Assembly: GCA_036925085.1 (NCBI GenBank)
Contig: JAUPFP010000047.1
Coordinates: 418,501 to 482,500 of the forward strand
Length of the DNA: 64,000 nt
Reading direction: 5' to 3'
Source: Brachycybe producta
Lineage: Eukaryota > Arthropoda > Diplopoda > Playtdesmida > Andrognathidae
Of this stretch, positions 6,736-38,163 are shown in pieces. The position numbers and the translations under genes are program-made. Below the pieces are notes generated by a model. The model was not told where the DNA came from, did no database searches, and saw only the letters and a program-made list of their open reading frames with translations. The stretch's first letter is position 1. The number at the start of each line of letters is the position of its first letter.

Positions 6736-9334
6736 CTATTTGCCGGATTTAAAGTTTTCCATTATATGGCCGAAGATGATAACGAAACTTTCCAAATGGT
6801 AAAGATGCCACAAAATAGTGCCGGTACATGTGCACAGCACATGGGCAAAGTTGTCAGTTGTGAAGGAGATAAACAATAGGACCCGGATCCAGAATAGTGC
6901 GAGGTTAGTGGTCATCTCACTTAATGTATCCCTCCGCCCACGTGTTTCTGCCATGCACATCAGCATCATTGACCGCTCCTTGTTTATTTCTTCAATTGGG
7001 ACGTCATTTTCTTTCGTGGCGTCACTAGTATCAATATTATCATTCATTTTCGTTGTTTCATCGATAATTTGCGCGTCTTTTGTCTCAATTTGAAATTCCA
7101 TTGTTGATTTTTTTTGCTTTTTCAGCGTTTTCTATCGTTTTTTTTCAGGAATTTTGCCGATTTCTTTAATAAATTCAATGGTTTCCATGGTGAAATTCGG
7201 CTTGTCACCGTATTCTCGGGTGAATTTCATCGCATCCTCTCCAGGTAAGTATGAGAATCCCTGTTATTTATCATCTGCTGCCATTTTCCTTCTAATTTCG
7301 ACGGTATGGTCGGAATGCTTCTGGATTTCTCTTTTGAATATTTCAATTTCCTCTTCATCCTCAGATGATTCGATCCAGGCATTTTGGCATATGCAGTGTC
7401 CATAACATCTCTTCTTATGGGAAGGTAAGTTCTTCTTGACAAACGCTGTCATTTCTTTTTCTTTTTCAGGTTCCGATTTGGATTCTTCGAGGGATGAGTT
7501 ACCCATGGACTCCAGGGTGTCTCCAGTCGTTGGAACATTGAGTCATTCTTGTTGGTAAGCCTCATATAGTGGTCTCATGTTTACGATATTTACAGAGTCC
7601 TCCACTAATCTTCCCACTTGATTTTCGTACTAGATGGTATACGTCCGATACCTTCACGACAATTGTATATATCCCTTTCTCCATTTCGTGAAGAATTTTT
7701 TTTTCTGGCCAGGCCTGATTCGCATGTCTTGTACTAATACTTTCTGACCAACTTTGTACTCATAAGGCGTTTTATGCCTTTAGTCATAGTACTTATTTCT
7801 TCGATCATGTGCGGCTTTCAGGTTCGCTCTGTCTGCTCTTAGTTCTTCTTGGCATTCCTACACCTGTTGTCGAACATCTACGAGGTTTCCTGCCTCGTTA
7901 TCCATGATTGTTGGTCGTTCTGGAACTAAGGTGTCAACTTTGGTTCTAGGCTCCCATCCAAACATGAGTTTATGCGGTGTAAAATTTGTAGATGAGTGTA
8001 CAGATGAATTGTACGCTTCTAATACTTCATCCAGTTTTGTAGCCCAATCAGTTTGGTTCTTTGCAGGAGTTAGATACTTCTTCATAGTCTGAATAATGCT
8101 CTTATTCATTCGTTCGGCGAGACCATTACTTTGAGGATGATACGCTGTTATGGTGTCATGCTCAATCTCACTTCTTTCAAGAATTCTTGAGTGTTTCCAG
8201 CAACAAATGGCGTTCCTCTATCCGAAATGAGTTTCTTGGGTCTCCCAAAAATTCTTCTTACATCTTTCATTAGGAAGTGGATGACAATTAGTGCGGTTGT
8301 GCTTTTGACTGCTTTAGCAACACAATATCTGGTGGCATAGTTGACCGCCAACAAGATGTGCTTAGTTCCTCCAACCGATGGTACTAATGGTCCAATAAAA
8401 TTCATTCCCTGGGCATTTCTTGAAGGAACCCTTCAGGTTTCTCCGTACCTAACTTGTGTAGCTGACAAATCTCACATGACCTGACATATTCGAAAATGTC
8501 GTGCTTCATGTTGTTCCAATAAAATCTCTGCCTGGCTCGATCCCAGGTCTTTGTCCTTCATGACCAGCATCCGGCTCGTCATGGCATAATCGCATTACTT
8601 CTGGGATAAGGTGTGTTGGAACCACGTTCATGAATGTGGGCACGAAACTTCCATGGAACACAAGCAAACAAAATATTGTCATAATCGCAAAACAACTTAT
8701 GAAGAGGTGATTCTGGCTGTTTATGTAGCTCTTCACGAATCTTCATGATCTCTTGGTCCAATTTTTGCTCGACCCTCCAATCACGCTGTCATCTAGGTCC
8801 TCAGCTTTGAGAATTTCCTTCAAGTTGACAGGCACTCCTGCTGGATATCGCGAGAGGCAATCAGCTTTGACATGAAGTTTCCCCTCCTTGTAGATGATCT
8901 TGTAGTCATACTCTTGCATTAGAAGCTGCCAGCATCCAAGCCTTTCTTCGAGACATGCTGCACTGCTGCAGTCGTCATGTAACATAATGCATGATGATCG
9001 GTCACAGTTGTAAAGGGTTTCTGGAACAGGTACGGCCGGAACTTGGTAACTCCATAGATCACTGCTAGGCATTCTTTATCCGTTGTACTGTAATTCTTCT
9101 CAGCATCCTTTAGAACTTTGGAGACACTTCCGATGATCTCCTTTCTTTGTTTATCCTCTGACTTCTGATACATCATGGCTCCAATTCCACATCCATAGGC
9201 ATCAGTGTGCATAAATATTGCAGCCTTGGGATCATAAACGGCGACTAATGGAGCTTTTGACAACATACTCTTCAAAGTGCGGAATGCATTCTTGCAGACA
9301 ACTGTTCATTCAAACAGTACATCCTTGCCCTTAA
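6736..9334 (-). pseudogene. pol: Element D: decayed Gypsy pol, RNase H to integrase and C-terminus
   Basis: Read leftwards from the transposon junction: RNase H domain (about 9,330-8,920; motifs HTDAYG and TDHHAL), an intervening linker (9,070-8,580), integrase core (8,405-8,150; FIGPL and SDRGTPF motifs), integrase end (8,109-7,858; HKLMFG), then a charged tail (7,506-7,264). The last open stretch (7,101-6,736) has a central hydrophobic segment and no recognised homologue. The pieces lie in at least two frames, and a TGA replaces a conserved tryptophan near 9,307, so the gene is dead. It is a Gypsy lineage clearly different from A, B and C. The matching reverse transcriptase end lies at 38,160-38,425, on the other side of the giant transposon. 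Confidence 0.8.
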
Positions 9335-9351
9335 GAGGGTATTTGGTAAAA
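9331..9351 (+). repeat. TTAA target duplication and left TIR of the giant transposon
   Basis: TTAA (9331-9334) is followed by GAGGGTATTTGGTAAAA, which is repeated in inverted orientation at 38,143-38,159 and followed there by TTAA again. A few tens of bases further in, both ends share a TTGGGGG(C/T)GC block. Confidence 0.85.
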
Positions 9352-9835
9352 ATACAAGAAGAAGAACAAGAATTGGGGGCGCTGCTGGTAGTAAGTAATA
9401 GATCAACCTGATTGGTTGCACAATTTTCTAAAGGGTCCTCCTCTAAGATGAGCCGTTATATACAAGCGGAACGACATAGAAGAAACTCTTATGAGATTCA
9501 CTAAGATTCACATGTATTAAACTAAATTCACAGTAAAGTTTTGCATAGCTAGCCATTTAAGTTTCTATTTGCGTTTTACTGGACACCCAGAATAGAATAT
9601 AATCTTCAAAATCAAGAAAACATGGATAAAAATGAATAAGGCTTGCCATAATGCTCGTGATTTACCACCCAGTGTCGTTCCCTTAGTTATAACGGTCTAA
9701 GAGACGTTTTTTCTATGTCTAGACGATGTCAGTTGTCACATTTTGGTTTCTGTTTTATTTATGACTTGTGTAAGGTTCGCCCATTATAAAGTAAAAAAGG
9801 TGGTGTAAGGTTCTTTTTATTATTTTAATATTCCT
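9352..9835. other. Left subterminal region, no gene seen
   Basis: AT-rich sequence after the left TIR. No coding region or repeat was recognised. Confidence 0.5.
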
Positions 9836-10312
9836 GTTGTTTTCGACATTTTGTTCTGAATGTTGCTGTAAAACTGAAACTTTTAACATGGAAACCAATG
9901 AAGATTTCGTTATGGCGGTAAGTTCTTTTCCTTATTTCTTGCAAATTACTTTCTCAATTATCGCGAAATTTTCTAGAAATAAAGATAAAAGTACGTAGTT
10001 TCACGCCCAGGCATTGTTTTTGTAATGTCACTGGTTGGTTGTTTTTAGTGTTTTATTCTGAAACCTACTTTGAATATTTGGAGTGAATTTTTTGAATAAC
10101 ACATTAAAAACATACAGGAAGAATATTTAATTAAACAATGGTTGATTATAAAACTACCTATTTTTATCTGTATTTCTTAAAAATTTCACGAAAATTTCAT
10201 CATGAAATGTTCAAGAAATAAGCAAAAGAACTAGCCAACATATCAAAATCTCCATTGGCTTCCATGTTAAAAGTTTCGGTTTTACACTAACGTTCATAAC
10301 AAAACACCGAAA
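9836..10312. repeat. Long foldback carrying two divergent copies of a first-exon-like sequence
   Basis: 9,836-10,000 is matched in inverted orientation by 10,140-10,312. The left arm (plus strand) contains an ATG at about 9,889 starting METNEDF, followed by a GTAAGT donor-like site. The right arm (minus strand) contains METNEDF-like MEANGDF from about 10,264. The sequence just upstream of both ATGs is also conserved. The arms differ by substitutions, so the palindrome is not recent. Whether it is transcribed cannot be told. Confidence 0.6.
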
Positions 10313-10404
10313 ACAAAAAAAAACGATGAGGCATATTAAAAAACGGGTCAGACTAAAACACAAAGGCTACTATAAGCGTTACAAGGCACTGAAAATACGT
10401 GTAG

Positions 10405-10563
10405 ACACACGGAAAAGCACGGAAAAAAACCAAGAAAGTGGAGAAGTCACCAAAGAAGGCAGAGAGGTCATCAAAGAAGTCATCGCCTGTCAAGAAAGTG
10501 AAGAGTCCGAAGCCAAAGAAAGTAGCAGCGGCAAAGAAGAGCAAGGCGACTACGAAGAAGTAA
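10405..10563 (+). pseudogene. Captured histone H1-like C-terminal tail
   Basis: The frame open from just after a TAG at 10,402 to a TAA at 10,561-10,563 encodes about 52 residues that are nearly all Lys, Ser, Pro, Ala and Val, with repeated SPKK-type motifs (EKSPKKAERS, VKSPKPKK) ending ATTKK. This is typical of the DNA-binding tail of linker histones or protamine-like H1 proteins. The globular winged-helix domain is absent upstream, so only the 3' end of a histone gene was captured. A perfect histone mRNA stem-loop follows 45 bp downstream. The source gene was presumably a host histone gene. Expression is unlikely without a start. Confidence 0.75.
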
Positions 10564-10608
10564 AAGACAAGACTTCCTTCCATCCAAGAAAAATCCAATC
10601 GAAACAAC

Positions 10609-10624
10609 GGCCCTTTTAAGGGCC
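10609..10624 (+). terminator. Histone mRNA 3' stem-loop
   Basis: GGCCCTTTTAAGGGCC fits the animal histone 3' processing consensus GGCYCTTYTNAGRGCC at every position. It is followed by a purine-rich stretch (about 10,633-10,648) where the histone downstream element would be. Together with the H1-like tail just upstream this identifies the captured fragment. Confidence 0.8.
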
Positions 10625-11100
10625 AAACACAAAATGAGAGAAAAATAACTTATGTACGCAATGCATTAATATTTTAATTTTTTTTAAATCATTTCTTCTT
10701 TCATGGAAAAACGCGGAAAATACAAACACACAGAAAACACAAACACAAGTTTCCGTGTTTGTAAGCATTTTCCGTGTTTGCACCAATTTTCTGTCTTTTT
10801 CCGTGTTTGTAAGCATTTCCGTGTGTTTGTAAGTTTTCTGTGCTTTTTTGTGTGTTTGTAGGTGTTATCCGCGTTTTTCCGTGTTTGTGTTTTCTGTGCT
10901 TTCCCATGTGTCTACACGTATTTTCCGTGCCTTGTAACGCTTATAGTAGCCTAATATTTTTCCGCACGTTTCCGTCAGTTTCCGTGTTTTAGCATGTGTT
11001 TATTAGAGGTGCTTATTGGACATAAGATCAATTAGTTTGAAACTGGCCAATTTTTTTTTTATCTAAATTAAAATTACTCAGCAATGAGAAACGTTTCCTT

Positions 11101-11244
11101 AGGCCTTGTTTCCATTGCACCAAAAATTTGAACTTCATGAAAATTTGAACTGGTGAAAAATAGAACAAACGTTCTATGTTCTAAACGAACATATGTTCTG
11201 TTTTTCACCAGTTCAAATTTTCGCCCCAGTTTAAAAAGGCCTTA
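11101..11244. mobile_element. Foldback MITE, about 145 bp
   Basis: A near-perfect hairpin with arms of about 28 bp (AAAATTTGAACTGGTG and its complement, about 11,139-11,222) is nested in outer ends AAGGCCTT/AAGGCCTT. No clear target duplication was fixed. Confidence 0.5.
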
Positions 11245-11305
11245 CCATTGAAAGATTTAGGCAATATTCATTATATGTAAAACGTGTTGTAAAGAAAGAT
11301 GATGC

Positions 11306-11450: not shown

Positions 11451-12122
11451 ACTATCTAGTTACTCCTAATTAGTTTCAGATTTCATTCTATCACCTAAAA
11501 AGCTTTTGTTTCTATAGGATTTTCTATGGTAAGGAAACTTTTCATTCCTAATTAGTTTTAAACTGGTGGAATTTTGTTCATATGTTTTAAATTAATTTTA
11601 AATTTACTATAATTACTTAAAAAAGTTTTCTTACCATTGAACATCTTATAAAAACAGTAGCTTTTAGTGTTGTATTTGATTATCACATGTTTAATTTTTA
11701 ATTTCTGTAGCATTAGATGAGTTTTCCATAGACTACCAAATAGGGTTTCCATTACCGGTCACCTTACAACATTACCGGGTTTTCGGTAATGTTTGTGTGA
11801 CAATTTTTGATCCAATGGGATTTAACATGGGGTTTAAAAATCGAACGATTTTGAACCTTGTTTAAAAATAGGACCTTTTCAAAAATTATATAAATCGAGC
11901 ACATAAAGAACAATACTTTTTATTGCATTTTGCGCTTTACTGTATTATAATTGAGCGATTGTGATGCGATTTCTTGCAGTTTTAGTAACATTATATAACA
12001 CTCATTTGTCTCGTCGCCTGCTCAAAACAAGACGGACGTGTATTTAGGCTCTTAAATGCATTTAAATTATCAGGTGTGCACTAGGTATTACTCTTACTAT
12101 TTAAGAAATTTATTCACAATTC
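11451..12122. other. No gene seen
   Basis: AT-rich intergenic sequence inside the giant transposon, with short duplicated bits such as TTTTCTATGGTAAGGAAAC-like words near 11,520. No supported feature. Confidence 0.5.
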
Positions 12123-12370: not shown

Positions 12371-12444
12371 ATTAGTGTCTGCATACCTTGCAACGGTTTC
12401 GAATACATGTAGTTAATGGACTGAAAAAATATTACAGAAGTACA

Positions 12445-13273
12445 TTAAAACATACCAGTCAGAACATGTACCAAATGTCTTGCAAACCTTATGTAATTCA
12501 AGCATTCATTGTTATTGTGACCATGACAATGACACAATTTGCAGCAACACTGCATTGACAATTTGGTTGCATCCACAGTCCTAGGACCTACTTCTGGAAT
12601 ACAACCTGGGAACATCTTCCTCAGTACCCTTCGAATGGTACTAGTGAAAGCAGTTACACCAGAATAAAAAGACAAGTGCAGCCCATCTTTGCCCAGGAGG
12701 TGATGTTTACATTCACCATTTTTTAGGCGGAAAGCAATCTGAAAAAATACCATAATACACTTTAATTTTACAAACCAATGATGTCCTGTGAAAACAATCT
12801 ATACTTCATAATTCAACAGTGAAAAAGTATCTTTTTGGTGCTTTTTTAACCCTCTGTTTATAAGGACACCTTTTCTGTTGAATTCAATGCTGTCATTTCT
12901 TGGAAGAATTGTTCCAATGTAAACAGCATTGACATGCTTCTTCAGATGATGGGCTAGGTTGATTAGGTCTCCCAACACTTGCTTTTCAGGTTTGCAGAGG
13001 TCATTAGTTCCAACCTTAATTGACCAGCAAATTTTTGAAAATGTTTTACAATAATTTGTTTTTAAAATGGATGTTACTTACATGTATCACAATAAAATCT
13101 AGCAAATCCAGTGCTAAACATTGTTTGCTGATTATTTGCAATATGTCTGCTATTGTTGCTCCTGGCAAGCAAAATGTGCAGATGCTTATGTTAGCATCAA
13201 AACCAACGATCCTATTGCGTGTCACATGACGGAGAATTGAATCTCCAATCAATAATCCTTTTACTTCAGTCAT
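12445..13273 (-). CDS. SGNH/GDSL hydrolase-like gene, three exons
   Basis: Exon 1 (13,273-13,082) starts at ATG after an AG acceptor and contains the block I motif LLIGDSILRH. A GTAAGT donor at 13,081 and an AG acceptor at 13,016-13,015 join phase 0, giving IVIHVGTNDL across the junction, the block III motif. Exon 2 runs from 13,014 to about 12,855 (YIGTILPRND). Exon 3 begins near 12,738 after TTTTTTCAG and holds GKDGLHLS, the Asp-x-x-His block V, then a Cys/His-rich end. The exon 2/3 donor is not resolved. SGNH enzymes hydrolyse ester bonds using Ser, Gly, Asn and His, and all four are present. Such domains are common passengers in animal transposons, and the substrate is unknown. Confidence 0.7.
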
Positions 13274-13519
13274 CTGTTTTAAAAATGTAACTTGCATCAA
13301 TAAATGTGAATACCCAATCCACATAGATACATATTCATTCATTATTCATTCCATATATTACTCATTGTGATAGTCTTGAGTTATCTGAGATATCCAGACA
13401 TGCAGACTAGAAATAAAAGTTGAACATTCATTGAATGAAGTAACAGCTTTATTATGAATAACTACTTGCATGGATGACATATGGCATGGCATATGCACAT
13501 GGCATTCACACAATAATCA

Positions 13520-13659: not shown

Positions 13660-14880
13660 CCATGGATATGTGGTTAAAAATCTTTTAATACTTAATTTTC
13701 CTAATGTTTTCTAAATCTAATAGCATGAGAAAAACAAATGTCTAAATACCTAACAATAGCTAACCTAACCTATAACAGAACATGAAAACTAATTGGAACA
13801 CCATAAAAATTCAAACAGGTATTTTTATGCAATCCATAAATTTCACCAGAAGGCAAATTTATTCACTTCATTAGCCTGCAATTATGGCACTGAGCCTTCA
13901 GCATACAATTTGGCATGAAGAGAAAATGCATTTTTTCAGATGTTTTGGAAATCCAATAACATGAGAAAAACCAATGGGTGGACAAACCCTGTGGGATAAC
14001 CTGAAAACTAATTGGAGAATGTCCTAGAAATTCAGACAGGTATTTTTATGGAATCCATAAAAATCTCACTGGAAGGCAAATTCACTTCATTAGCCTGCAA
14101 TTATGGCACTGAGCCTTCAGCATACAATTTGGCATGAAGAGAAAATGCATTTTTTCAGATATTTTGGAAATCCAATAACATGAGAAAAACCAATAGGTGG
14201 ACAAACCCTATGAGATAACCTGAAAACTAATTGGAATGTCCTAGAAATTCAAACAGGTATTTTTATGGAATTCATAAAAATTTCACTTGAAGGCAAATTC
14301 ACTTCATTAGCCTGCAATTATGGCACTGAGCCTTCAGCATACAATTTGGCATGAAGAGAAAATGCATTTTTTCAGATGTTTTGGAAATCCAATAACATGA
14401 GAAAAACCAATGGGTGGACAAACCTTATGGGATAACCTGAAAACTAATTGGAGAATGTCCTAGAAATTCAAACAGGTATTTTTATGGAATCCATAAAAAT
14501 CTCACTGGAAGGCAAATTCACTTCATTAGCCTGCTATTATGGCACTGAGCCTTCAGCATACAATTTGGCATGAAGAGAAAATGCATTTTTTCAGATATTT
14601 GGAAATCCAATAACATGAGAAAAACCAATAGGTGGACAAACCCTATGAGATAACCTGAAAACTAATTGGAATGTCCTAGAAATTCAAACAGGTATTTTTA
14701 TTGAATCCATAAAAATCTCACTGGAAGGCAAATTCACTTCATTAGCCTGCAATTATGGCACTGAGCCTTCAGCATACAATTTGGCATAAAGAAAAAATGC
14801 ATTTTTCAGATGTTTTGGAAATCCATTAACATCAAAAAACCAATGGATGACTGAACCTTATAAAATAACTGGAAAGAAAA
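13660..14880. repeat. 218-bp tandem array, about 5.5 copies
   Basis: The word GGCACTGAGCC recurs at about 13,886, 14,105, 14,322, 14,541 and 14,757, spacing 216-219 bp. The first and last units are divergent. Neighbouring units alternate between GGGTGGAC and AGGTGGAC variants. No coding content. Confidence 0.85.
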
Positions 14881-15204
14881 AACTGCACGTGAACTACTTT
14901 GTGAAGAGAGAACCTGTTTTTCCTGGCTACACTTATGTGGACAAGATTAACCATATTTTATGCTGCACACTGACAACCCAATTTTTTAAACATTTCTGTT
15001 CTCCAACCAGATCGTACAGTTACTTAGCAACTTGCCAAGAGACCATTCAGAGCAGATATTTGGTATTTGTACATTGGAATAATCACTGTTAAGTGCCTAA
15101 AGGGACAATTTAGTCCAAAAGCAGCATAGAAATGCATTGTCAATATAAACATTTATTCCCAGCCAATCCCTCATTTGAATATAAGTTCAATTGCAGCATG
15201 ATTA
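14881..15204. other. No gene seen
   Basis: Sequence between the 218-bp array and a MITE. A short plus-strand open frame (14,847-15,092) partly overlaps the last repeat and has no recognisable features. Confidence 0.5.
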
Positions 15205-15206
15205 TA

Positions 15207-15213
15207 CAGTGCA

Positions 15214-15260
<47 letters not shown>

Positions 15261-15633
15261 TATATATATTAGTTATAACTGAGGTTGCACTTGATAAATC
15301 CACCTAAAATTTTCAACATATAGACAGCATGTTATATTATAAATGTCCTGCTAGACAGAAATTTGGTTCTTAAAAAGGTAAAAAACTCACAAACTAAAAA
15401 TGACTATTTCATAATTACAGATTAAACAATTCACTTATAAGTTATTCTGATTATGAAAGTCATTTAAGTTTTTACGTTTTTTAGTTTTAACCTTTTTAAG
15501 AGACTATTTTCTGCCTAGCAGAAAGTTTATAATATAACATGCTCTCCTTATGTTGAACATTTCAGGCAGATACAGTAGGTGTAACTTGAGTTATAACTAA
15601 TTTCTGTGGTGCATCTATATATGAAATGCACTG
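15207..15633. mobile_element. Palindromic MITE with TA target duplication (427 bp)
   Basis: Ends CAGTGCATTT and AAATGCACTG are flanked by TA on both sides (15,205-15,206; 15,634-15,635). The two halves are long inverted arms, for example GCATGTTATATTATAAA on the left against TTTATAATATAACATGC on the right. An expanded AT tract lies in the left arm (15,218-15,270). TA duplication fits a Tc1/mariner-type non-autonomous element. Confidence 0.7.
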
Positions 15634-15705
15634 TATATGCATTGTTTAATAGTACCCCTAAGAGTTCCCCAAATGATATTTTTCTGGAAGCAAATTCCAT
15701 TGTCA

Positions 15706-15888
15706 AATTCAGTACCTGAAATAAGAAAATTGCGCAGTATCTGAAATAAGAAAATTGCGCAGTACCTGAAATAAGAAAATTGTGCAGTACCTGAAATAAG
15801 AAAATTGCGCAGTACCTGAAATAAGAAAATTGCGCAGTACCTGAAATAAGAAAATTGCGCAGTACCTGAAATAAGAAAATTGCGCCTG
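15706..15888. repeat. 25-bp tandem repeat, about 7 copies
   Basis: Units of the type GCGCAGTACCTGAAATAAGA followed by AAATT, nearly identical. The open frame through it is a by-product. Confidence 0.85.
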
Positions 15889-16142: not shown

Positions 16143-17354
16143 CTATGCAGTTGCTGAGCTAGTGCTTGGTTTTGCCTGAATCTTCCAATCTGGATTCCTG
16201 ATTGGGAGATTTCTCTTAGCCCTAGGGTCAGCAAGTTCAGGCAAAACACAAGTCAGGTAATATTTTTCTAGTTGTGGGCCCATGTTTTTCTTCCAAAAGT
16301 CATCATCCCTTTCAATCCTTTCTCTGTGGATGTCTTTAGGTGTCCATACAACAAAATCACAATACTTCCTGTTTGTGATGTGTAATTGCCCTTGGATTTG
16401 ATAGTAGTATTTGTGAATTCTACTAAGAAAGAAGTTCTCATCTGACTTTTTCTTTAGGTAGAAATTCTTCAGTGAATTTACTGCTTCAGCAATAGTCATA
16501 TGTTTTGCTGACTGTGGACATTTAACTTCTATCAATCCATCTTCACCAATAACACCATCTGGTGTTGCAGCCAAATATGGTTGTTCAAGGTCCACAAACA
16601 AACCACATTTTTTAACAACTGCACTGAATTTGTTTTCATAGCACTTTATTGCCTGTTCCTCATTCATGATTCCCCATTCTATATCCTTATTTCCAAGTAG
16701 GGTTTTTGGATACAGAAGCTTTGAGACCATTTTGTCACAAGGAGTTTGTGCTTTTTGTCTACAGACATCACCAAAATTAGATGCTGTGATTCTTCTTTTT
16801 CTTTCCTCAAACCATTTCTCTCTGTCATTTTGAGTAGCTTCCTCTAAAGCATTTCATTGAACCAAAGAAAGCTTAATCTCTGAAAGAATTTCTGCCATTC
16901 TTTCTTCGAGAGTTTCTTTGTTCATATCCGCTTGCTGGCTGGTCTCACCATAATCTTGTGCAGATTCCTTGGTTTTATTTCTTTCTGCAACTCTGTGCAA
17001 TTTCTGAAGGTACCCTTCTTTGGTTTTTATTTTTTTCCGGTGACTTTGATTAAGCTTCAGTTGTATCCTTCGCTTCCTTGCTTGTTTTTTTAAAACACTG
17101 GATGGTGTTTCTCCAGGATACATTTTTCTTGTCACCTCTACCTGCCACCCAGGCCCATGAACTTTGCTACAACCAGCAGCATATACACGAAGGGCATATG
17201 CACCACCTTGGCAGAAGTTCACACGTTTCCCACCAATCATCTTGCTGATGAGGCTCATAAACTGTTCTGCAACATTTGTGGTTACATGGTGCACAAGGCT
17301 GTTTGCATGTTGAACTAACCTTGCACCAGCAGCTGTAATACCAGACCACAATTG
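16143..17354 (-). pseudogene. Transposase-nuclease gene, 3' half: end of the Mutator-like domain plus YqaJ nuclease
   Basis: Reading left from the Gypsy C insertion point (17,354), the frame continues the Mutator-like transposase with the conserved NVAEQFMSLISK and GGKRVNF motifs, then a basic linker. A single in-frame TGA (16,854-16,856) interrupts it. The same frame goes on through EKWFEERKRRITASNFGDV, the usual start of YqaJ-type nucleases, and the PD-(D/E)xK site in TPDGVIGEDGLIEVKCP (about 16,520-16,565), ending at a stop at 16,143-16,145. YqaJ/lambda-exonuclease-like enzymes resect DNA ends. Fusion to a transposase suggests help with excision or repair, which is inference. The insertion plus the TGA make this copy inactive. 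Confidence 0.8.
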
Positions 17355-18132
17355 TGTAACGACCCGACTGGTCCGTCACAATACCTCGGGCAGATTTAGT
17401 ACGGTCCAAAAGAACCTAATCCAAAACTTACCCGGCACCAGACTCCAACGGGGACGGGATCGCACCCGTAGCCGCCTCTGCACGGTGATGTTGAGAAACG
17501 TCGGCTCCACTGGAGTCTCCCTCGTCGGACACGACGGTCGATCCGCCGCCACAACGAGAATATCGCGGTGGAATCCCTTCCACCGCGAGCCGACGTAAGT
17601 ACCGGCCGACAATAGGCCGGGAAGAGATGGTGGAATCCCGTTGAATCCCCACCCTCTCCGCGGTACTCCCCAATAAATCACACAACACCAGAAGTAGTAA
17701 AATAAAAGAGATGTTTATTAACACTTACTGTTAATTATGCAAATAAAAAGGCAGTGGTATATTATGATCCACACAACTTGGCTGGTGCAATCCACCAGCC
17801 AAGCCTCCATGAAAAACAACCAACCAAGGAACAAAAGAAGAACCAAACAATGGAGGCCTCCCTGGCCTCCAGCAAAGATGTTGGCTAGTCAATTACCTAC
17901 AACACACTGCCCAGATTCAATGGCTGACCAAGCCAAAGAAACCTCCAGGCAACTCCACCTGGAGGGGACAGTGGTCACTTCTGACCTCTCACCCATTGAC
18001 TTCAATGGTGAGAGGTCTGCTGGCACCAAAATGGCGTCCGACCCAACAGCCTACTATATGCTGCCAGGCAGATCACCATAGGGAGTTGGTCTGCTCAATA
18101 ACAAATTTGATTGAGCAGACCAGGTTGCCACA
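17355..18132 (-). repeat. 3' LTR of element C
   Basis: Begins TGTAACGACC and ends TTGCCACA on the plus strand. Carries the same features as the 5' copy: minus-strand AATAAA at 17,714-17,719, the octamer-like ATGCAAAT at 17,737-17,744 and the serial hairpins to its right. Confidence 0.95.
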
Positions 18133-18152
18133 ATCCTCTCAACTTCCCTGTT
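18133..18152 (-). other. Polypurine tract of element C
   Basis: The minus strand reads CAGGGAAGTTGAGAGGAT directly before the 3' LTR. A purine-rich tract at this place primes plus-strand synthesis in LTR elements. Confidence 0.6.
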
Positions 18153-18209
18153 CCGCCCCGGGAACAGGTAGGTCGAGCCAGCACGGATTGCTCCCTCAAA
18201 CCTGACCAC

Positions 18210-25259: not shown

Positions 25260-25276
25260 TTTCGGTCGCTCACCAC

Positions 25277-27058: not shown

Positions 27059-27768
27059 TTTTCACCGTAAATGAACGGTAAAATCTGGACAAAGCCACCA
27101 GATAGCGGATTACCACCGTCGAAAACGGTAAATTCACGGACAAAAGTCCGTAAAATACCGTAACGAATGGATGGTACCGTGCGAAACCGCGGTATCACGG
27201 ACAAAAGTCCGTGTCCCACGGTAAAGAACGGTCAGAGTTCTCACCTACCGGTTTCTACCGCGGTCCCACGGACAAATGTCCGTGCCCCACAGTGTACTTC
27301 ACGGTACAACGACTTTTACCACTCTCTACCGTGGTTCCACGGACCAAAGTCCGCACCCCACGGTGTAATTGCGGTAAAAACCTCTCCAACCACTTTCCAC
27401 CACGGCACAACGGACAACCGTCCGAAACCCACGGTGTAATCGCGGTCAAAAACCGTAAAACCGCGTTCCACCACGGTACAACGGACCAAAGTCCGAAACC
27501 CACGGTGTAATTACGGATAATTACGGTTACAAACCTTCGTAACCGCGTTCCACCACGGTACAACGGACAAAAGTCCGAAACCCACGGTGAAATTACGGTT
27601 AGCAAGGTTTGCGAGGCTAACCAACGGTTTCTGCCGCCGTCCCACGGACCAAAATCCGTGCCCAGCAGCGTACTACCGTCGCCAAGTGATTTGACCGTCG
27701 AAACGGACAAATCCACGGTCTAAAACCGTGCAAGAGGCTGGGTACGAGTACCCGGCGCCTCCACCAAT
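27059..27768 (-). promoter_or_regulatory. Element C 5' leader with eight regularly spaced hairpins
   Basis: Palindromes of the form CGGAC, 4 bases, GTCCG lie near 27,136, 27,197, 27,268, 27,339, 27,408, 27,480, 27,562 and 27,643, i.e. every 61-82 bp. The best is CACGGACAAAAGTCCGTG (27,196-27,213). Most are followed by a CCCACGG(T) block. In RNA each would be a 5- to 7-bp stem with a 4-base loop. Function unknown; packaging, dimerisation or internal ribosome entry are possibilities. Confidence 0.75.
27749..27766 (-). other. Primer-binding site of element C
   Basis: Two bases inside the 5' LTR the minus strand reads TGGTGGAGGCGCCGGG, which resembles the complement of an animal tRNA-Ala 3' end (TGGTGGAG start, GCCGGG end). 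A and B share TGGTGGAGG and then diverge. The tRNA assignment is from memory and tentative. Confidence 0.5.
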
Positions 27769-28546
27769 TGTAACGACCCGACTGGTCCGTCACAATACCT
27801 CGGGCAGATTTAGTACGGTCCAAAAGAACCTAATCCAAAACTTACCCGGCACCAGACTCCAACGGGGACGGGATCGCACCCGTAGCCGCCTCTGCACGGT
27901 GATGTTGAGAAACGTCGGCTCCACCGGAGTCTCCCTCGTCGGACACGACGGTCGATCCGCCGCCACAACGAGAATATCGCGGTGGAATCCCTTCCACCGC
28001 GAGCCGACGTAAGTACCGGCCGACAATAGGCCGGGAAGAGATGGTGGAATCCCGTTGAATCCCCACCCTCTCCGCGGTACTCCCCAATAAATCACACAAC
28101 ACCAGAAGTAGTAAAATAAAAGAGATGTTTATTAACACTTACTGTTAATTATGCAAATAAAAAGGCAGTGGTATATTATGATCCACACAACTTGGCTGGT
28201 GCAATCCACCAGCCAAGCCTCCATGAAAAACAACCAACCAAGGAACAAAAGAAGAACCAAACAATGGAGGCCTCCCTGGCCTCCAGCAAAGATGTTGGCT
28301 AGTCAATTACCTACAACACACTGCCCAGATTCAATGGCTGACCAAGCCAAAGAAACCTCCAGGCAACTCCACCTGGAGGGGACAGTGGTCACTTCTGACC
28401 TCTCACCCATTGACTTCAATGGTGAGAGGTCTGCTGGCACCAAAATGGCGTCCGACCCAACAGCCTACTATATGCTGCCAGGCAGATCACCATAGGGAGT
28501 TGGTCTGCTCAATAACAAATTTGATTGAGCAGACCAGGTTGCCACA
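27769..28546 (-). repeat. 5' LTR of element C
   Basis: 778 bp. In transcription sense (leftwards) the U3 half is packed with hairpins: TGGTCTGCTCAAT/ATTGAGCAGACCA (28,501-28,536), GACCTCTCACC/GGTGAGAGGTC, CCTCCAGG/CCTGGAGG, TGGAGGCC/GGCCTCCA with loop TCCCT (28,265-28,285) and CTTGGCTGGTG/CACCAGCCAAG with loop CAATC (28,191-28,217). Then come the octamer-like ATTTGCAT (28,151-28,158) and AATAAA (28,128-28,133). Confidence 0.95.
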
Positions 28547-30962
28547 ATTGTCCCTTTTCAAGTTGCAGAACATGGTTTTCCTCATTCTTATCTTTTTTGC
28601 AAAAGTAAGACTTGCAGTTTGAATGATTGCCAAATACATGATGTGGGCAATTTTTTATGTCTGCCTGGAGTTGTTTTACTTTTTCTTCAAAGTTCATTTC
28701 TGCAGGCAAATAATGCCGAAGTGCAGAAAGAATGCCAGCTGTAAGCCCAGTCATACGTTTTGGAGTCAGAAGTTTGCGATGCACAAGTGGAATTTGTGTA
28801 TTATTTTGCAAACTAGTGAGCTTTGCACGATAATTTCGCATGAGATGATTCGTGCATTCAAGCTTAATAACTGTGTATGGGACTGTTTTTGAAATTTTAT
28901 GGAATACACTAGAATCACCATCTCCAACAACGTATTTATACCTAAGTCCATGATTTTTTTCGCTGTTAACAAAAGCAGACACAATTATGTCTGCCTCCAT
29001 TGCTCCTGATGATCCGTCCCAGTTTTTGTAGCATTGGTGCTCTGGTATTTCTTCAGAAACCTCATACCTGCTGCAAGTTGCACAGTACTTGTTCCTTATT
29101 CCAATATCTAACAGCTCCCCTGACTCAGCTTCAAATATGGCAGCCATACCAGAAAGTGAATCATAGCTGTGATGGTATGAGCGCTTAGGCCAGGACCCAT
29201 CAACAACAACCATTATCCAAGGAACATCTCCATCAAATTGTTTTTTTTCTATAGCCCTTTGTTTTGCACGCATTCCTGCCTCTTTCATTGATGCTTTTAG
29301 TGCCGGTATAAGTCGTTTCTCAATGTCTTCAGATGTTTGATGAAATTTTTCATAACTCATACAGGGGATTCCTACCACAGACAGAAATTCTGACAACTGA
29401 GCATAACCAATCCCAATACTAATGGAACCAAGTACAGCTGCAAGGTTGATGTCCTGTTTAAGGGCAGGGTCCTCACTGTACATTTGCATCTGGAAATCAC
29501 AACTTCTGCACTTTAGGTTGAAGTTTGATTTCAGCCCATTTTTCACCTCTTTCACAAATTTCAATTCTGAAAATGTGCACCTCTTTGCATGTTTTTCAGC
29601 TTTCTTTATTCCAATGTCGAGAGTTTTCAACCCGACAATGCGGCGGTTGCTAAGCTTTAGCTCATCTTTGTCTTTTTCTTTTTCTCCATAGACATATGTC
29701 AATTGGTGATCATCAATTGACTGACTATCGCTCTTTCCAAAATCTAAGCATCGAGCTGAAGCAGGAGTGACATGTTCACCACTATTATGCCTGTGCTCAG
29801 AACTATCTAAATGTCTTTTGGCTGAGCTTGTTGTATAAAAACTCTCATTGCACACATGGCATGTTATCATGTGTGATGGTTCTAAAGAAAGTGCAGGTGA
29901 AGGTGCAGAAGATGCAAATGACACATCAGAAGGCACAGGAGATTGTGCAAACGACAAGTCTGATGGCACTGGAGATGCCACAAATGACACTTCAGAAGGT
30001 GCATGTGATTTTGCCACTGACAAGTCTGATGGCACTGGAGATGCCACAAATGACACTTCTGAAGGCACTGGAGATTGTGGGCATGATGCATAAGACACTG
30101 GAGATGCTGCAGTAGACAAAGAAGAAAGAGGCATACTAGATGAAAACACAACAGATGTTGACATCATTGATGGAGATGCAGCAGTCAGAGACACAGTAGC
30201 AGGAATAACAGGAGGCACACACACAGGAGACACAGCAGATGGAGTCACGGCAGCTGGAATGACATCAGCTGAAATCACAGTAGTGTGAGATACGGATTCT
30301 GTAATCACATCAGGAGACATGGCAGCTGGAATCACAGTAGCCACAGTCTGAGCAGTGGGCAACATTCCCACTGCTGGAATCACAACAGTAGGATGTAGGA
30401 CTGTGGAAGAAACAGCAGGTGGAGGTGGCACATAGAACACAGCAGATGGAGCAACAGATGAGGGTCCAGGAGCTGTAACAAAAAACAAGGTAGATGGAGA
30501 TATGAACAATGGCCTTGGAGGTGCCACACAAAACACATTAGGTGGAGACACAGCCAAACTAGAAACAGCAGCTGGAAAAACAGCAGCTGGAAAAACAGTT
30601 GCTGGAGAAACAGCAGCTGGAAAAACAACCGCTGGAGAAACAGCAGCTGGAAAAACAACCGCCGGAGAAACAGCCGCCGGAAAAACAGCCGCCGGAGAAA
30701 CAGCCGCCGGAGAAACAGCCGCCGGAGAAACAGCCGCCGGAGAAACAGCCGCCGGAGAAACAGCCAGTGGAAACTCATTAGTTGATGTAGATGGTGCATC
30801 AACTGGTGTAGATGATTCTTCTTTTTCCTTTCGTAGTTTCCTTATAAAATTATATAGCATAACATGAGACAAATGAAGTAAAGTGGTTACTTTCTCAGAA
30901 TAAACTTACCAAGTTAATCTTACAGCTTTTGACTTTTTCGATCTTTTCCTTGAATGTCCCAT
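28547..30962 (-). pseudogene. Transposase-nuclease gene, 5' half: zinc finger and Mutator-like DDE transposase
   Basis: Probable exon 1 is 30,962-30,910 (ATG, MGHSRKRSKKSK) ending at a GTAAGT donor. An AG acceptor at 30,842-30,841 joins in phase to exon 2. Exon 2 encodes a low-complexity region (PAAVS-type 5-residue repeats, 30,540-30,770; then Ser/Pro-rich longer repeats), a C2H2 finger CHVCNESFYTTSSAKRHLDS (about 29,795-29,860), and a Mutator-like transposase domain with Asp motifs VVVDGSWPKRS and VVGDGDSS and the downstream ECTNHL block. It would cut and join transposon ends in the nucleus. The frame is open up to the ATTG at 28,547-28,550, where Gypsy C is inserted, and resumes at 17,354. 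Confidence 0.8.
30540..30775. repeat. 15-bp coding minisatellite
   Basis: Units of CCGGAGAAACAGCCG and related 15-mers encode the PAAVS/PAAVF repeats of the transposase N-terminus. Recent expansion is likely, since the last units are identical. Confidence 0.8.
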
Positions 30963-31044: not shown

Positions 31045-31207
31045 CAGTAGGGAAGTAATATCTAGGATTCTAACATCTAAAGAGTGAGTGCTTTGATATG
31101 CTATTTTAAAGTAAATGAATTAATTCACATTATTAATTTACCATACGTTTATATTTATTTTTTAAGCTTACTTTGATTATGATGTGTATATACATATATA
31201 CACAAAA

Positions 31208-34200
31208 AAAGTCCATTCCAGTCTGCCCTGGAGAGAGATGGCTTTCTTGCAGAAATTGAAGGTGCGGCCCAGCCCAAAACACGTTGGTTGCCATGCACTT
31301 GTGCTTGGCTATCAGGAAATGCCTTCGGATAGATTTTCCTACCATCTATTAAAAAGTCCATTTCAGCCTGCCCTGGAGAGAGATGGCTTTCCTGCAGAAA
31401 TTGAAGGTGCGGCCCAGCCCAAAACACGTTGGTTGCCATGCACTTGCGCTTGGCTATCAGGAAATGCCTTCGGATAGATTTTCCTACCATCTATTAAAAA
31501 GTCCATTTCAGCCTGCCCTGGAGAGAGATGGCTTTCCTGCAGAAATTGAAGGTGCATCCCAGCCCAAAACACGTTGGTTGCCATGCACTTGCGCTTGGCT
31601 ATCAGGAAATGGCATCGGATAGATTTTCCTACCATCTATTAAAAAGTCCATTTCAGCCTGCCCTGGAGAGAGATGGCTTTCCTGCAGAAATTGAAGGTGC
31701 GGCCCAGCCCAAAACACGTTGGTTGCCATGCACTTGCGCTTGGCTATCAGGAAATGCCTTCGGATAGATTTTCCTACCATCTATTAAAAAGTCCATTTCA
31801 GCCTGCCCTGGAGAGAGATGGCTTTCCTGCAGAAATTGAAGGTGCATCCCAGCCCAAAACACGTTGGTTGCCATGCACTTGCGCTTGGCTATCAGGAAAT
31901 GGCATCGGATAGATTTTCCTACCATCTATTAAAAAGTCCATTTCAGCCTGCCCTGGAGAGAGATGGCTTTCCTGCAGAAATTGAAGGTGCGGCCCAGCCC
32001 AAAACACGTTGGTTGCCATGCACTTGCGCTTGGCTATCAGGAAATGCCTTCGGATAGATTTTCCTACCATCTATTAAAAAGTCCATTTCAGCCTGCCCTG
32101 GAGAGAGATGGCTTTCCTGCAGAAATTGAAGGTGCATCCCAGCCCAAAACACGTTGGTTGCCATGCACTTGCGCTTGGCTATCAGGAAATGGCATCGGAT
32201 AGATTTTCCTACCATCTATTAAAAAGTCCATTTCAGCCTGCCCTGGAGAGAGATGGCTTTCCTGCAGAAATTGAAGGTGCGGCCCAGCCCAAAACACGTT
32301 GGTTGCCATGCACTTGCGCTTGGCTATCAGGAAATGCCTTCGGATAGATTTTCCTACCATCTATTAAAAAGTCCATTTCAGCCTGCCCTGGAGAGAGATG
32401 GCTTTCCTGCAGAAATTGAAGGTGCGGCCCAGCCCAAAACACGTTGGTTGCCATGCACTTGCGCTTGGCTATCAGGAAATGCCTTCGGATAGATTTTCCT
32501 ACCATCTATTAAAAAGTCCATTTCAGCCTGCCCTGGAGAGAGATGGCTTTCCTGCAGAAATTGAAGGTGCAGCCCAGCCCAAAACACGTTGGTTGCCATG
32601 CACTTGCGCTTGGCTATCAGGAAATGCCTTCGGATAGATTTTCCTACCATCTATTAAAAAGTCCATTTCAGCCTGCCCTGGAGAGAGATGGCTTTCCTGC
32701 AGAAATTGAAGGTGCGGCCCAGCCCAAAACACGTTGGTTGCCATGCACTTGCGCTTGGCTATCAGGAAATGCCTTCGGATAGATTTTCCTACCATCTATT
32801 AAAAAGTCCATTTCAGCCTGCCCTGGAGAGAGATGGCTTTCCTGCAGAAATTGAAGGTGCAGCCCAGCCCAAAACACGTTGGTTGCCATGCACTTGCGCT
32901 TGGCTATCAGGAAATGCCTTCGGATAGATTTTCCTACCATCTATTAAAAAGTCCATTTCAGCCTGCCCTGGAGAGAGATGGCTTTCCTGCAGAAATTGAA
33001 GGTGCGGCCCAGCCCAAAACACGTTGGTTGCCATGCACTTGCGCTTGGCTATCAGGAAATGCCTTCGGATAGATTTTCCTACCATCTATTAAAAAGTCCA
33101 TTTCAGCCTGCCCTGGAGAGAGATGGCTTTCCTGCAGAAATTGAAGGTGCAGCCCAGCCCAAAACACGTTGGTTGCCATGCACTTGCGCTTGGCTATCAG
33201 GAAATGCCTTCGGATAGATTTTCCTACCATCTATTAAAAAGTCCATTTCAGCCTGCCCTGGAGAGAGATGGCTTTCCTGCAGAAATTGAAGGTGCGGCCC
33301 AGCCCAAAACACGTTGGTTGCCATGCACTTGCGCTTGGCTATCAGGAAATGCCTTCGGATAGATTTTCCTACCATCTATTAAAAAGTCCATTTCAGCCTG
33401 CCCTGGAGAGAGATGGCTTTCCTGCAGAAATTGAAGGTGCAGCCCAGCCCAAAACACGTTGGTTGCCATGCACTTGCGCTTGGCTATCAGGAAATGCCTT
33501 CGGATAGATTTTCCTACCATCTATTAAAAAGTCCATTTCAGCCTGCCCTGGAGAGAGATGGCTTTCCTGCAGAAATTGAAGGTGCAGCCCAGCCCAAAAC
33601 ACGTTGGTTGCCATGCACTTGCGCTTGGCTATCAGGAAATGCCTTCGGATAGATTTTCCTACCATCTATTAAAAAGTCCATTTCAGCCTGCCCTGGAGAG
33701 AGATGGCTTTCCTGCAGAAATTGAAGGTGCGGCCCAGCCCAAAACACGTTGGTTGCCATGCACTTGCGCTTGGCTATCAGGAAATGCCTTCGGATAGATT
33801 TTCCTACCATCTATTAAAAAGTCCATTTCAGCCTGCCCTGGAGAGAGATGGCTTTCCTGCAGAAATTGAAGGTGCAGCCCAGCCCAAAACACGTTGGTTG
33901 CCATGCACTTGCGCTTGGCTATCAGGAAATGCCTTCGGATAGATTTTCCTACCATCTATTAAAAAGTCCATTTCAGCCTGCCCTGGAGAGAGATGGCTTT
34001 CCTGCAGAAATTGAAGGTGCGGCCCAGCCCAAAACACGTTGGTTGCCATGCACTTGCGCTTGGCTATCAGGAAATGCCTTCGGATAGATTTTCCTACCAT
34101 CTATTAAAAAGTCCATTTCAGCCTGCCCTGGAGAGAGATGGCTTTCCTGCAGAAATTGAAGGTGCAGCCCAGCCCAAAACACGTTGGTTGCCATGCACTT

Positions 34201-34805
34201 GCGCTTGGCTATCAGGAAATGCCTTCGGATAGATTTTCCTACCATCTATTAAAAAGTCCATTTCAGCCTGCCCTGGAGAGAGATGGCTTTCCTGCAGAAA
34301 TTGAAGGTGCGGCCCAGCCCAAAACACGTTGGTTGCCATGCACTTGCGCTTGGCTATCAGGAAATGCCTTCGGATAGATTTTCCTACCATCTATTAAAAA
34401 GTCCATTTCAGCCTGCCCTGGAGAGAGATGGCTTTCCTGCAGAAATTGAAGGTGCAGCCCAGCCCAAAACACGTTGGTTGCCATGCACTTGCGCTTGGCT
34501 ATCAGGAAATGCCTTCGGATAGATTTTCCTACCATCTATTAAAAAGTCCATTTCAGCCTGCCCTGGAGAGAGATGGCTTTCCTGCAGAAATTGAAGGTGC
34601 GGCCCAGCCCAAAACACGTTGGTTGCCATGCACTTGCGCTTGGCTATCAGGAAATGCCTTCGGATAGATTTTCCTACCATCTATTAAAAAGTCCATTTCA
34701 GCCTGCCCTGGAGAGAGATGGCTTTCCTGCAGAAATTGAAGGTGCGGCCCAGCCCAAAACACATTGGTTACCATGTACTTTTGCTTGGCTATCAATAAAT
34801 GCCTT
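31208..34805. repeat. 145-bp satellite array, about 24.8 copies, dimeric organisation
   Basis: CTGCCCTGGAGAGAGATGGC recurs every 145 bp from 31,223 to 34,703. Units are about 98-99% alike, except for diverged edges. A diagnostic site reads GGTGCGGCCC, GGTGCATCCC or GGTGCAGCCC, and the forms alternate, so the real unit of amplification is a 290-bp dimer. Because 145 is not a multiple of three, the 79- and 90-residue open frames inside are not genes. Confidence 0.97.
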
Positions 34806-35660
34806 ATGTTTGATTTGTATTTTTATTTTCAAGATTATAATGGTAGTAGACTAGAATGGTAGTTTTATCACCTAGTTATTTTCATGTTAGCAATACAATA
34901 TTAAAATTTTTTTTTAAATAATTCAAATTTTTAATGTTGGCACCTGAAATACAGAATCAAAGTTCAGTAATCAGCTTTTTATATAACTAATTTGTGAAAA
35001 ACTTCCACTTATATTTTATAAACAGAAGATGAGAAAGTGGGAAATCATTTTAGAGAGGTGTGATGCTAATCACTGAAATAGACCAAAAAAAATATTTATG
35101 CCCTAAAATGCATAAATTTCAAACATACTTCTAAATTTTTTTAAAATAATGTGTTTTAAGTATATTTTATTATCATTCTTGACAAAAACCAATAGACAAA
35201 ATTGAATGTTTTTGTTAAAATTTAAATAATTAAAAAATAATATTTATATATTCACTTACTGTTTTTGTTGACAAATTGGTGTTTTCCTATTGAATGACTT
35301 TGTATGTTTTCATAATATGCTATATGCCCCTATGATATAACCTTTGCTTGCACCTGTTCCACTGAAATGAACTAACCCAATCACTATTTTTAAATCTTGC
35401 TATTTCATTACTAATGAATTTGTACACAAATATAAAAAAGATACGCATAAAGACAATTTAGATGTTTTATATAAATTTATTACATGTATGCAATTGAATT
35501 GAATTTAGAAATATTTTATATTAGAATATATGGACATGTAATTTGCCCCTTGAGTAAATATCCCTGCAATAGAACTATACTGTGAGTAATGTGTAACCCT
35601 GTTTTATTGAATATAGCTAAAATAAAACATAAATAACGAATTATATAATAAAAAACATAT
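34806..35660. other. AT-rich spacer, no gene seen
   Basis: Very AT-rich sequence between two satellite arrays. No open frame of note and no repeat recognised. Confidence 0.6.
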
Positions 35661-37425
35661 ACTTACCCTAATTTTATGCTGTAATTAACTCTAGAACGAG
35701 TTTGATGTCGTTCTTTGGCTTAAAAACACAAAGAAACGACGTCAAACTCGTTCGAGAACGATGAGTGACCGTGCGTTGTTTTTCACGTTTTTAGACGTCA
35801 TTTTTGAGCCTAAAATAACAAATTAAAGTGATAAAAACACGTACTTACCCTAATTTTATGCTGTAATTAACTCTAGAACGAGTTTGATGTCGTTCTTTGG
35901 CTTAAAAACACAAAGAAACGACGTCAAACTCGTTCGAGAACGATGAGTGACCGTGCGTTGTTTTTCACGTTTTTAGACGTCATTTTTGAGCCTAAAATAA
36001 CAAATTAAAGTGATAAAAACACGTACTTACCCTAATTTTATGCTGTAATTAACTCTAGAACGAGTTTGATGTCGTTCTTTGGCTTAAAAACACAAAGAAA
36101 CGACGTCAAACTCGTTCGAGAACGATGAGTGACCGTGCGTTGTTTTTCACGTTTTTAGACGTCATTTTTCAGCCTAAAATAACAAATTAAAGTGATAAAA
36201 ACACGTACTTACCCTAATTTTATGCTGTAATTAACTCTAGAACGAGTTTGATGTCGTTCTTTGGCTTAAAAACACAAAGAAACGACGTCAAACTCGTTCG
36301 AGAACGATGAGTGACCGTGCGTTGTTTTTCACGTTTTTAGACGTCATTTTTGAGCCTAAAATAACAAATTAAAGTGATAAAAACACGTACTTACCCTAAT
36401 TTTATGCTGTAATTAACTCTAGAACGAGTTTGATGTCGTTCTTTGGCTTAAAAACACAAAGAAACGACGTCAAACTCGTTCGAGAACGATGAGTGACCGT
36501 GCGTTGTTTTTCACGTTTTTAGACGTCATTTTTGAGCCTAAAATAACAAATTAAAGTGATAAAAACACGTACTTACCCTAATTTTATGCTGTAATTAACT
36601 CTAGAACGAGTTTGATGTCGTTCTTTGGCTTAAAAACACAAAGAAACGACGTCAAACTCGTTCGAGAACGATGAGTGACCGTGCGTTGTTTTTCACGTTT
36701 TTAGACGTCATTTTTGAGCCTAAAATAACAAATTAAAGTGATAAAAACACGTACTTACCCTAATTTTATGCTGTAATTAACTCTAGAACGAGTTTGATGT
36801 CGTTCTTTGGCTTAAAAACACAAAGAAACGACGTCAAACTCGTTCGAGAACGATGAGTGACCGTGCGTTGTTTTTCACGTTTTTAGACGTCATTTTTGAG
36901 CCTAAAATAACAAATTAAAGTGATAAAAACACGTACTTACCCTAATTTTATGCTGTAATTAACTCTAGAACGAGTTTGATGTCGTTCTTTGGCTTAAAAA
37001 CACAAAGAAACGACGTCAAACTCGTTCGAGAACGATGAGTGACCGTGCGTTGTTTTTCACGTTTTTAGACGTCATTTTTGAGCCTAAAATAACAATTTAA
37101 AGTGATAAAAACACGTACTTACCCTAATTTTATGCTGTAATTAACTCTAGAACGAGTTTGATGTCGTTCTTTGGCTTAAAAACACAAAGAAACGACGTCA
37201 AACTCGTTCGAGAACGATGAGTGACCGTGCGTTGTTTTTCACGTTTTTAGACGTCATTTTTGAGCCTAAAATAACAAATTAAAGTGATAAAAACACGTAC
37301 TTACCCTAATTTTATGCTGTAATTAACTCTAGAACGAGTTTGATGTCGTTCTTTGGCTTAAAAACACAAAGAAACGACGTCAAAGTCGTTCGAGAACGAT
37401 GAGCGACCGTGCGTTGTTTTAGAAA
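35661..37425. repeat. 182-bp satellite array with a hairpin in every unit, about 9.7 copies
   Basis: ACTTACCCTAATTTTATGCT recurs at 35,661, 35,843, 36,025 and so on every 182 bp to 37,299. Units are almost identical (isolated changes near 36,169, 37,095 and 37,385). Each contains AACGAGTTTGATGTCGTT and, 20 bp on, AACGACGTCAAACTCGTT, giving a stem of about 24 bp with one mismatch and one bulge. Each also has a GGTAAGTA splice-donor-like word on the minus strand. Confidence 0.97.
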
Positions 37426-37570
37426 ATTGTCGAGGCAGTTTTTCACTCTAAAATTAAAAATAATAGGAATTAGTTATAAAAAAACATTACTTACCTACAT
37501 TTAAAGGTCGCAGTTAACACTATAAGAAGTTTGACGCCGTTATTTTGCTTAAAAACGCCAAAATTGTACA
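37426..37570. repeat. Diverged 182-bp-like unit
   Basis: The same order of landmarks as the array (ACTTACCTACATTT, GTTAACACTATAAGAAGTTTGACG, GCTTAAAAACG) with many changes, apparently an old founder-type copy at the array edge. Confidence 0.65.
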
Positions 37571-38142
37571 AAATGTAATACCACTGCAAATTGCAAATGG
37601 CGCCTGGTTTGAGAGAAATTAGATGCAACTATTGATGACGTCATGGACAGCTGACTTCAAAGAAGGCGTCAACATTTGACCATTATATGCCTTTACAAAC
37701 AGTGTCCACTTACAATGAAACTGACCCCATATGGTAATAAAGATTAATTTATATTGAATTGGATACAGTTAAGATTGAAGTGAAATTTTACTAATAGCAT
37801 AAAACCACATAAAACAGACAGGATATGTTTATAAAGAATCCCCTATGGCATTTAACATGGGGTAAAACACCAAAATTTGTAATTGAATATAAAAAAAACC
37901 TATTTATTTTTGTAACATGTAACTACTTTGTTAAGATGTTAATATATTTAACTAATGATAAATACTTTAATTATGTAAAAATACCTTACAGTAGTTATGT
38001 GGTGGATTTTGGCGTAAAACAAAAACTTATTTAAAACAACCAATCAAAAATTAACTTAGTTTAAAATTACCAATCATATTTGAAAAGTACACTGCACCCC
38101 CAAGTGAGAGTTTTTTGAACTAATGTCACCTGTTAAGCCTAA
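37571..38142. other. Right subterminal region, no gene seen
   Basis: AT-rich, without supported coding sequence. A TTGGGGG(T)GC block near 38,094-38,103 mirrors one near the left end. Confidence 0.5.
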
Positions 38143-38163
38143 TTTTACCAAATACCCTCTTAA
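38143..38163 (-). repeat. Right TIR and TTAA target duplication of the giant transposon
   Basis: TTTTACCAAATACCCTC (38,143-38,159) is the exact inverse of the left terminus and is followed by TTAA (38,160-38,163). Confidence 0.85.

Follow-up and report, generated by a model that had tools for sequence, protein, structure and literature searches.

Kolobok DNA transposons are described as having the termini 5'-RR and YY-3', with GA/TC ends, and in the KolobokE kind a CCHC zinc finger follows the first catalytic D of the transposase (PMC9587614). Full-length Xenopus Kolobok (XKol) copies measure 6,763-13,907 bp (PMC6004289, Table 5), and the Xenopus miniature inverted-repeat transposable element (MITE) Xmix carries the amplified repeat Xstir (PMC6004289). 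Teratorn, a larger element with terminal inverted repeats, reaches 41-182 kb (PMC6431247). Here we analyse a stretch of 64,000 nucleotides, called the window below, from the diplopod Brachycybe producta (assembly GCA_036925085.1, contig JAUPFP010000047.1, positions 418,501 to 482,500 of the forward strand), which contains a long segment bordered by TTAA (Table 1). We read this segment as the single insertion of a large, once probably autonomous Kolobok DNA transposon of the KolobokE kind, with a probability of roughly 0.87.

The segment is a real TTAA cut-and-paste element with its empty site preserved. As stated in the initial annotation, identical 17-bp inverted ends lie between direct TTAA copies (9331-9351 and 38143-38163). 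Joining of the 400-bp flanks with one TTAA yielded a single Gypsy frame running from reverse transcriptase to RNase H through the junction, which bears out the in-frame fit of the two pol halves noted there; the rejoined host pol, part of an old retrotransposon, has a stop as the eighth codon past the junction and three further stops past about 38.42 kb, where the pol-like stretch ends. Elsewhere in the window the 17-mer GAGGGTATTTGGTAAAA has no site at up to three mismatches and two sites at four. In the 295-Mb genome TTAA plus the 17-mer, with at most two mismatches, gave 129 matches versus 2 for a reversed control pattern. Without the young Gypsy inserted into it and one of the Gypsy's target duplicates, the element measures 17,629 bp end to end, matching the approximately 17.6 kb estimated before. 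It had also been called unusually large for a cut-and-paste element; large it is, but not far out of line with the longest XKol copies (up to 13,907 bp, PMC6004289).

A transposase and a nuclease had been announced inside the element, and both were recovered as Pfam matches (PF20700 and PF09588). They are parted by an in-frame stop (16854-16856), and their pieces align in order to a single 822-residue protein, P0016 (residues 108-420, 445-595 and 609-818), an uncharacterized protein of Halyomorpha halys according to its source; other single proteins align likewise. Alignment with five homologs revealed the motifs VVDG, GDGD, CTNH and NVAEQF in the window transposase, the catalytic residues being assigned by eye. 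A CCHC finger (CATC...HQC) is placed after the first catalytic D, as described for KolobokE, and CTNH after the second. The 5'-GA ... TC-3' termini fit the Kolobok rule, and the 4-bp TTAA target duplication is that of Kolobok, as seen from the empty Gypsy site. Features of KolobokP were not encountered: the whole-window comparison gave no shared stretch of at least 60 bp between 7831-11200 and 36301-39663, where long terminal direct repeats of about 450 or 660 bp would be expected, and no Pfam match to a His-Me finger nuclease appeared among the open reading frames (ORFs) scanned, shorter frames lying outside the scan. Within the open-access library searched, no paper on a Kolobok with a YqaJ nuclease was found, and one paper on KolobokE. 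Judged by its content and motifs, the element belongs most plausibly with the Kolobok transposons of the KolobokE kind.

Parts of the element recur at no fewer than 12 other loci, eight of them on contig C1. The copies cluster on this 22.2-Mb contig, which makes up about 7.5% of the assembly; four of them lie at 11.11-11.57 Mb. The left end is kept at at least six loci (C11:1145349, C1:6047270, C93:218472, C2:2319316, C3:10963737 and, with a worn end, C1:11568158), based on 40 scored of 372 candidates; this number leaves out many 69-77% matches to 9456-9700 as well as a stray inner piece. The right end is kept at five (C1:8449880, 7949853, 11402446, 11114565 and 11239039), all seven candidates having been scored and a 54-bp match on C62 dropped. 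Only inner parts are present at C1:6264620. Transposase matches of 65-76%, nuclease matches of 69-81% and repeats of the left spacer, the stretch between left end and nuclease, were not counted as copies. Judged by eye, the left flanks read, those of five of the six left-end loci, and the right flanks at all five right-end loci are unlike those of the window; the right flanks at 11114565 and 11239039 resemble each other (93.5% over 724 aligned bases).

Three of these loci preserve the main parts in the same order. The C3 copy comprises the left end to 9527, then 15661-17355 and 28542-31514 with small gaps, and thereby joins left end, 25-bp array, nuclease, transposase and 145-bp array; the stretch bearing the second catalytic D is missing from it. 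At C1:11114565, on the minus strand, the right end is followed by the 182-bp array, the 145-bp array, transposase and nuclease, with retroelement-like sequence in between. C1:6047270 extends from the left end to 15269 with gaps (e.g. 11205-12042) and continues with 34396-36220; no right end was found in the last 9 kb of the approximately 13 kb beyond the match. It has the histone H1 piece, the SGNH-like gene and the 219-bp array in common with the window. Because these same passengers are accompanied by a different left flank, the laden form was most likely mobile on at least one occasion.

Four loci show only the right 0.8-1.3 kb of the element and break within the 182-bp array, and their junctions were resolved in two cases, C1:7949853 and C1:11239039 not being among them. 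At C1:8449880 the target is a young long interspersed nuclear element (LINE), three other copies of which show the empty sequence: the right junction is exact at TTAA, and the left flank lacks about 15 bp preceding this TTAA. At C1:11402446 the target is a hAT-like gene, and comparison with two other copies revealed 31 bp lost on the left and an exact right junction at TTAA. At neither of these left junctions was a TTAA seen. Beyond the break, about 0.7 kb were read at C1:11402446 and about 1.0 kb at C1:11239039; the flank of C1:7949853, used as a genome probe, matched nowhere else, and no further element parts occur in the ten kb beside C1:8449880 and C1:7949853. The two resolved junctions suggest that the right-only copies were made by one-sided repair after excision. 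Alternatively, they might have arisen by one-ended integration, in which the transposase joined one genuine end and some arbitrary position of the 182-bp array to the target, with no repair after excision. The right ends of the four C1 copies, which have at most one mismatch, the left breaks varying within the array and the small target losses on the broken side (about 15 and 31 bp) are compatible with this alternative. However, flank was lost on the broken side and one junction contains about 30 bp of unassigned sequence, both of which are common when ends are joined after gap repair that was not completed; moreover, neither of the two resolved left junctions was seen to have a TTAA. We consider this alternative unlikely. 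Beyond the preferred one-sided repair, it is a rather doubtful conjecture that the 182-bp array acts as a stopping or surrogate-end zone, so that right-end-only units have repeatedly been left behind or inserted with their left border in the array. If true, an internal tandem repeat would shape how a DNA transposon breaks up and spreads.

A second rival to be weighed is that two TTAA elements settled side by side at one duplicated TTAA and were fused by deletion, such that the 17.6-kb unit never moved as a whole. Insertion into a duplicated TTAA does occur, because on C2 a 775-bp element (C2:2318545-2319319) and a left end of the big family starting at 2319316 share one TTAA. Moreover, a second long two-ended copy, which the initial annotation had made its test, was not found among the places searched, and the full unit is seen once. 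The search compared left-end with right-end places and, in addition, pairs of the 17-mer among 100 of the 129 genome places. No scored left-end place faces a right-end place at a plausible distance. The 100 places contain 32 facing end pairs within 60 kb, of which 29 are 701-775 bp long, one 1,330 bp, one 2,223 bp and that of the window 28,833 bp. Among these places, the two-ended members of the family are hence many and short, and a single one is long. A comparison of one short element with the big one showed only about 22 bp in common at the ends and a 13-bp match. Yet since the partial copies elsewhere overlap and keep the order of the main parts, the missing second full copy does not refute a single large unit. 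At another site, C1:6047270, the left arm continues into 34396-36220 in unchanged order; in C3 nuclease and transposase are linked to the left end, and at C1:11114565 they are linked to the right end. The window itself contains no internal end within three mismatches. A fusion of two neighbours is therefore very unlikely. The remaining candidate, a piggyBac-type element, would likewise duplicate TTAA, for which the initial annotation had named both families, but has next to no chance because the GA/TC termini, as for Kolobok (PMC9587614), and the transposase motifs, including C/DxxH and CCHC, favour Kolobok, the transposase ORF matches PF20700 and no piggyBac family, and no piggyBac transposase domain was matched by Pfam in the six ORFs scanned.

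Several points weigh against the insertion of one large KolobokE-kind unit and the events proposed for its relatives. The C3 copy is devoid of 9.5-15.6 kb, so the spacer is absent from some copies, and C11:1145349 has a displaced piece, 9802-10033 being found after 11391. The KolobokE filing derives from content and motifs, not from a tree or a match to a named Kolobok, and the unit numbers of the arrays hinge on the assembly. The one-sided repair draws on two of four junctions, and copies with only left parts exist too (C93, C2 and C11), which means that the left side is not invariably the one lost.

The initial annotation had credited the element with an SGNH hydrolase and a captured histone piece, but this cargo is humbler than claimed and consists mostly of nested repeats and broken gene pieces. 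The histone piece is indeed an H1 fragment; however, it comprises the 3' end only and lies within the 63-bp arms (10364-10426 and 10890-10952) of a nested small element. Its stem-loop (10604-10648) matches Rfam Histone3 with 35 bits at a cut-off of 34, and the piece is 84% identical over 218 aligned bases (10491-10704) and 81% over 73 bases (10440-10512) to the gene at C20:3176301-3177300. This gene has an open frame, its listed homologs bear the H1 domain, and the named sources of these homologs are mostly arthropods (among 120 listed). Pfam gave no match on the short piece itself. The 63-bp arms recur at many places of the genome, frequently as pairs that face each other over a few hundred bases, so a nested element most likely brought the histone piece in. 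The SGNH-like gene is a remnant in three pieces and two frames, named from GDSI, GTND and DGLHLS read by eye and without a Pfam match on the pieces. It sits in a repeat of its own, with relatives of 71-73% at C2:66726 and C1:12646630, and has a 75-bp direct repeat on each side (about 12125 and 13520). A functional histone or SGNH cargo was considered and is ruled out, as only the H1 3' end and a broken gene are left.

The tandem arrays, three of which had been annotated as satellites, are present, but those of 145 and 182 bp are the element's own repeats and not captured satellites. With a 301-bp probe, matches to the 145-bp array were obtained at five loci, and with a 401-bp probe those to the 182-bp array at eight, all of them copies of this Kolobok family (5/5 and 8/8 candidates scored); very common words were skipped by the genome search, and the genome-wide probing covered these two arrays out of the four. 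In a single count, 24.9 units of 145 bp in the window compare with 2.1, 4.5 and 2.9 in three relatives, the count leaving out a fifth locus, C1:6263996; likewise 10.6 units of 182 bp compare with 0.7-3.5 in six relatives, C1:6263800 being left out. Because the probes match only family copies with far fewer units, both arrays are most simply explained as belonging to the element and expanded in place here, a direction that the unit counts suggest. An origin as captured satellites is ruled out for the 145- and 182-bp arrays, since all genome matches lie in copies of the family.

The young Gypsy was correctly recognised before as a later insertion: its long terminal repeats are identical at 779/780 aligned positions, ATTG is duplicated at 17351-17354 and 28547-28550, and its site is empty in the C3 copy. 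It breaks the transposase between the last zinc-finger region and the catalytic E. A single stretch of locus L062 is matched by positions 2186-2968 (83%) and 27837-28546 (76%) of the window, which suggests that towards its left end the window holds a second Gypsy, related to the inserted one and older. Tandem units of 71 bp that resemble each other are found at 1768 and 27252.

On this basis we propose a scenario for the history of the element. The transposase, composed of a DDE core and zinc fingers with the YqaJ-type nuclease downstream, would bind both ends and excise the unit, a catalysis presumed from the family, and the unit would then join a TTAA site in the Gypsy pol gene under duplication of TTAA. 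The left spacer gathered nested small elements, one with the H1 tail and one with the SGNH-like gene, and the laden unit most likely moved again, as represented by C1:6047270 with its own TTAA-bordered left end and this spacer. The tandem arrays would have expanded in place inside the element. Later, the young Gypsy split the transposase gene, and one stop lies between transposase and nuclease. For the right-only copies, the simplest account would be that excision was followed by copying back from the right side only, release within the 182-bp array and end joining to the trimmed left flank.

Further repeats of the window lie outside the element. Minisatellites of the unit CATTTGCCCTAAA occur at 43238-43369 and 46083-47013 on opposite strands about 3 kb apart, and a long array rich in TC, with arrays of ACCTAACCGA and GTAGCTGTAGTGACCC close by, is found at 53475-53867 and 55895-56304. 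The short repeat at 57018-57143 is also present near several other TTAA ends (L004, L030 and L031).

Table 1. Features of the Kolobok element and its insertion site (window coordinates).
Feature	Position	Strand	Details
Whole element including both TTAA duplicates	9331..38163	.	28,833 bp
Left TTAA target duplicate	9331..9334	.	
Right TTAA target duplicate	38160..38163	.	
Left terminal inverted repeat	9335..9351	+	17 bp; GAGGGTATTTGGTAAAA
Right terminal inverted repeat	38143..38159	-	17 bp; exact reverse complement of GAGGGTATTTGGTAAAA
Host Gypsy pol, RNase H side of empty site	8743..9330	-	
Host Gypsy pol, reverse transcriptase side of empty site	38164..38420	-	
Transposase, N-terminal part and most of DDE core	28551..30905	-	PF20700, E 5e-85
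Transposase, C-terminal part, catalytic E region	16857..17350	-	NVAEQF
YqaJ-type nuclease domain	16146..16853	-	PF09588, E 7e-18
Young Gypsy long terminal repeat retrotransposon inside transposase gene	17355..28546	-	
Nested small element enclosing histone piece	10364..10952	.	63-bp inverted arms (94%)
Histone H1 gene 3' end	10440..10704	+	C-terminal tail, stop, 3' stem-loop, following bases
High-copy short repeat in left spacer	11788..12056	.	
Broken SGNH-like hydrolase pseudogene	12388..13297	-	named from motifs read by eye
Nested inverted-repeat stretch, probably small element	15185..15655	.	
219-bp tandem array	13779..14846	.	about 4.9 units
25-bp tandem array	15710..15885	.	7 units; array also in C3 copy
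145-bp tandem array	31206..34805	.	24.8-24.9 units, 98% alike
182-bp tandem array	35631..37420	.	9.8 units, inverted repeat within unit

Altogether, the element is most fittingly described as a Kolobok of a known family, long and laden but by now broken. It is a clear example of how a large DNA transposon of an animal took nested elements together with the tail of a gene to another TTAA site while its own tandem arrays grew in place, and it offers material for studying the development of transposon-borne repeats into satellite-like arrays and the decay of large cut-and-paste elements. Compared with KolobokE by the published criteria, not by sequences (PMC9587614), it is distinguished by its 17.6 kb, the laden left spacer and the large internal arrays. 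With XKol it shares the architecture of a long two-ended Kolobok flanked by TTAA (PMC6004289), but it is longer, split by a Gypsy and equipped with a YqaJ nuclease, which is not mentioned for XKol in the portions of that paper used here. As in Xmix with its Xstir repeat (PMC6004289), tandem repeats are amplified within a TTAA/Kolobok-type element; Xmix, however, is a MITE with simple repeats, whereas the window element is long and has units of 145, 182 and 219 bp. Finally, gene fragments lie between inverted ends as in Pack-MULEs (PMC6431247); here, however, a nested small element houses the H1 piece, which therefore provides no evidence of capture by the Kolobok itself.

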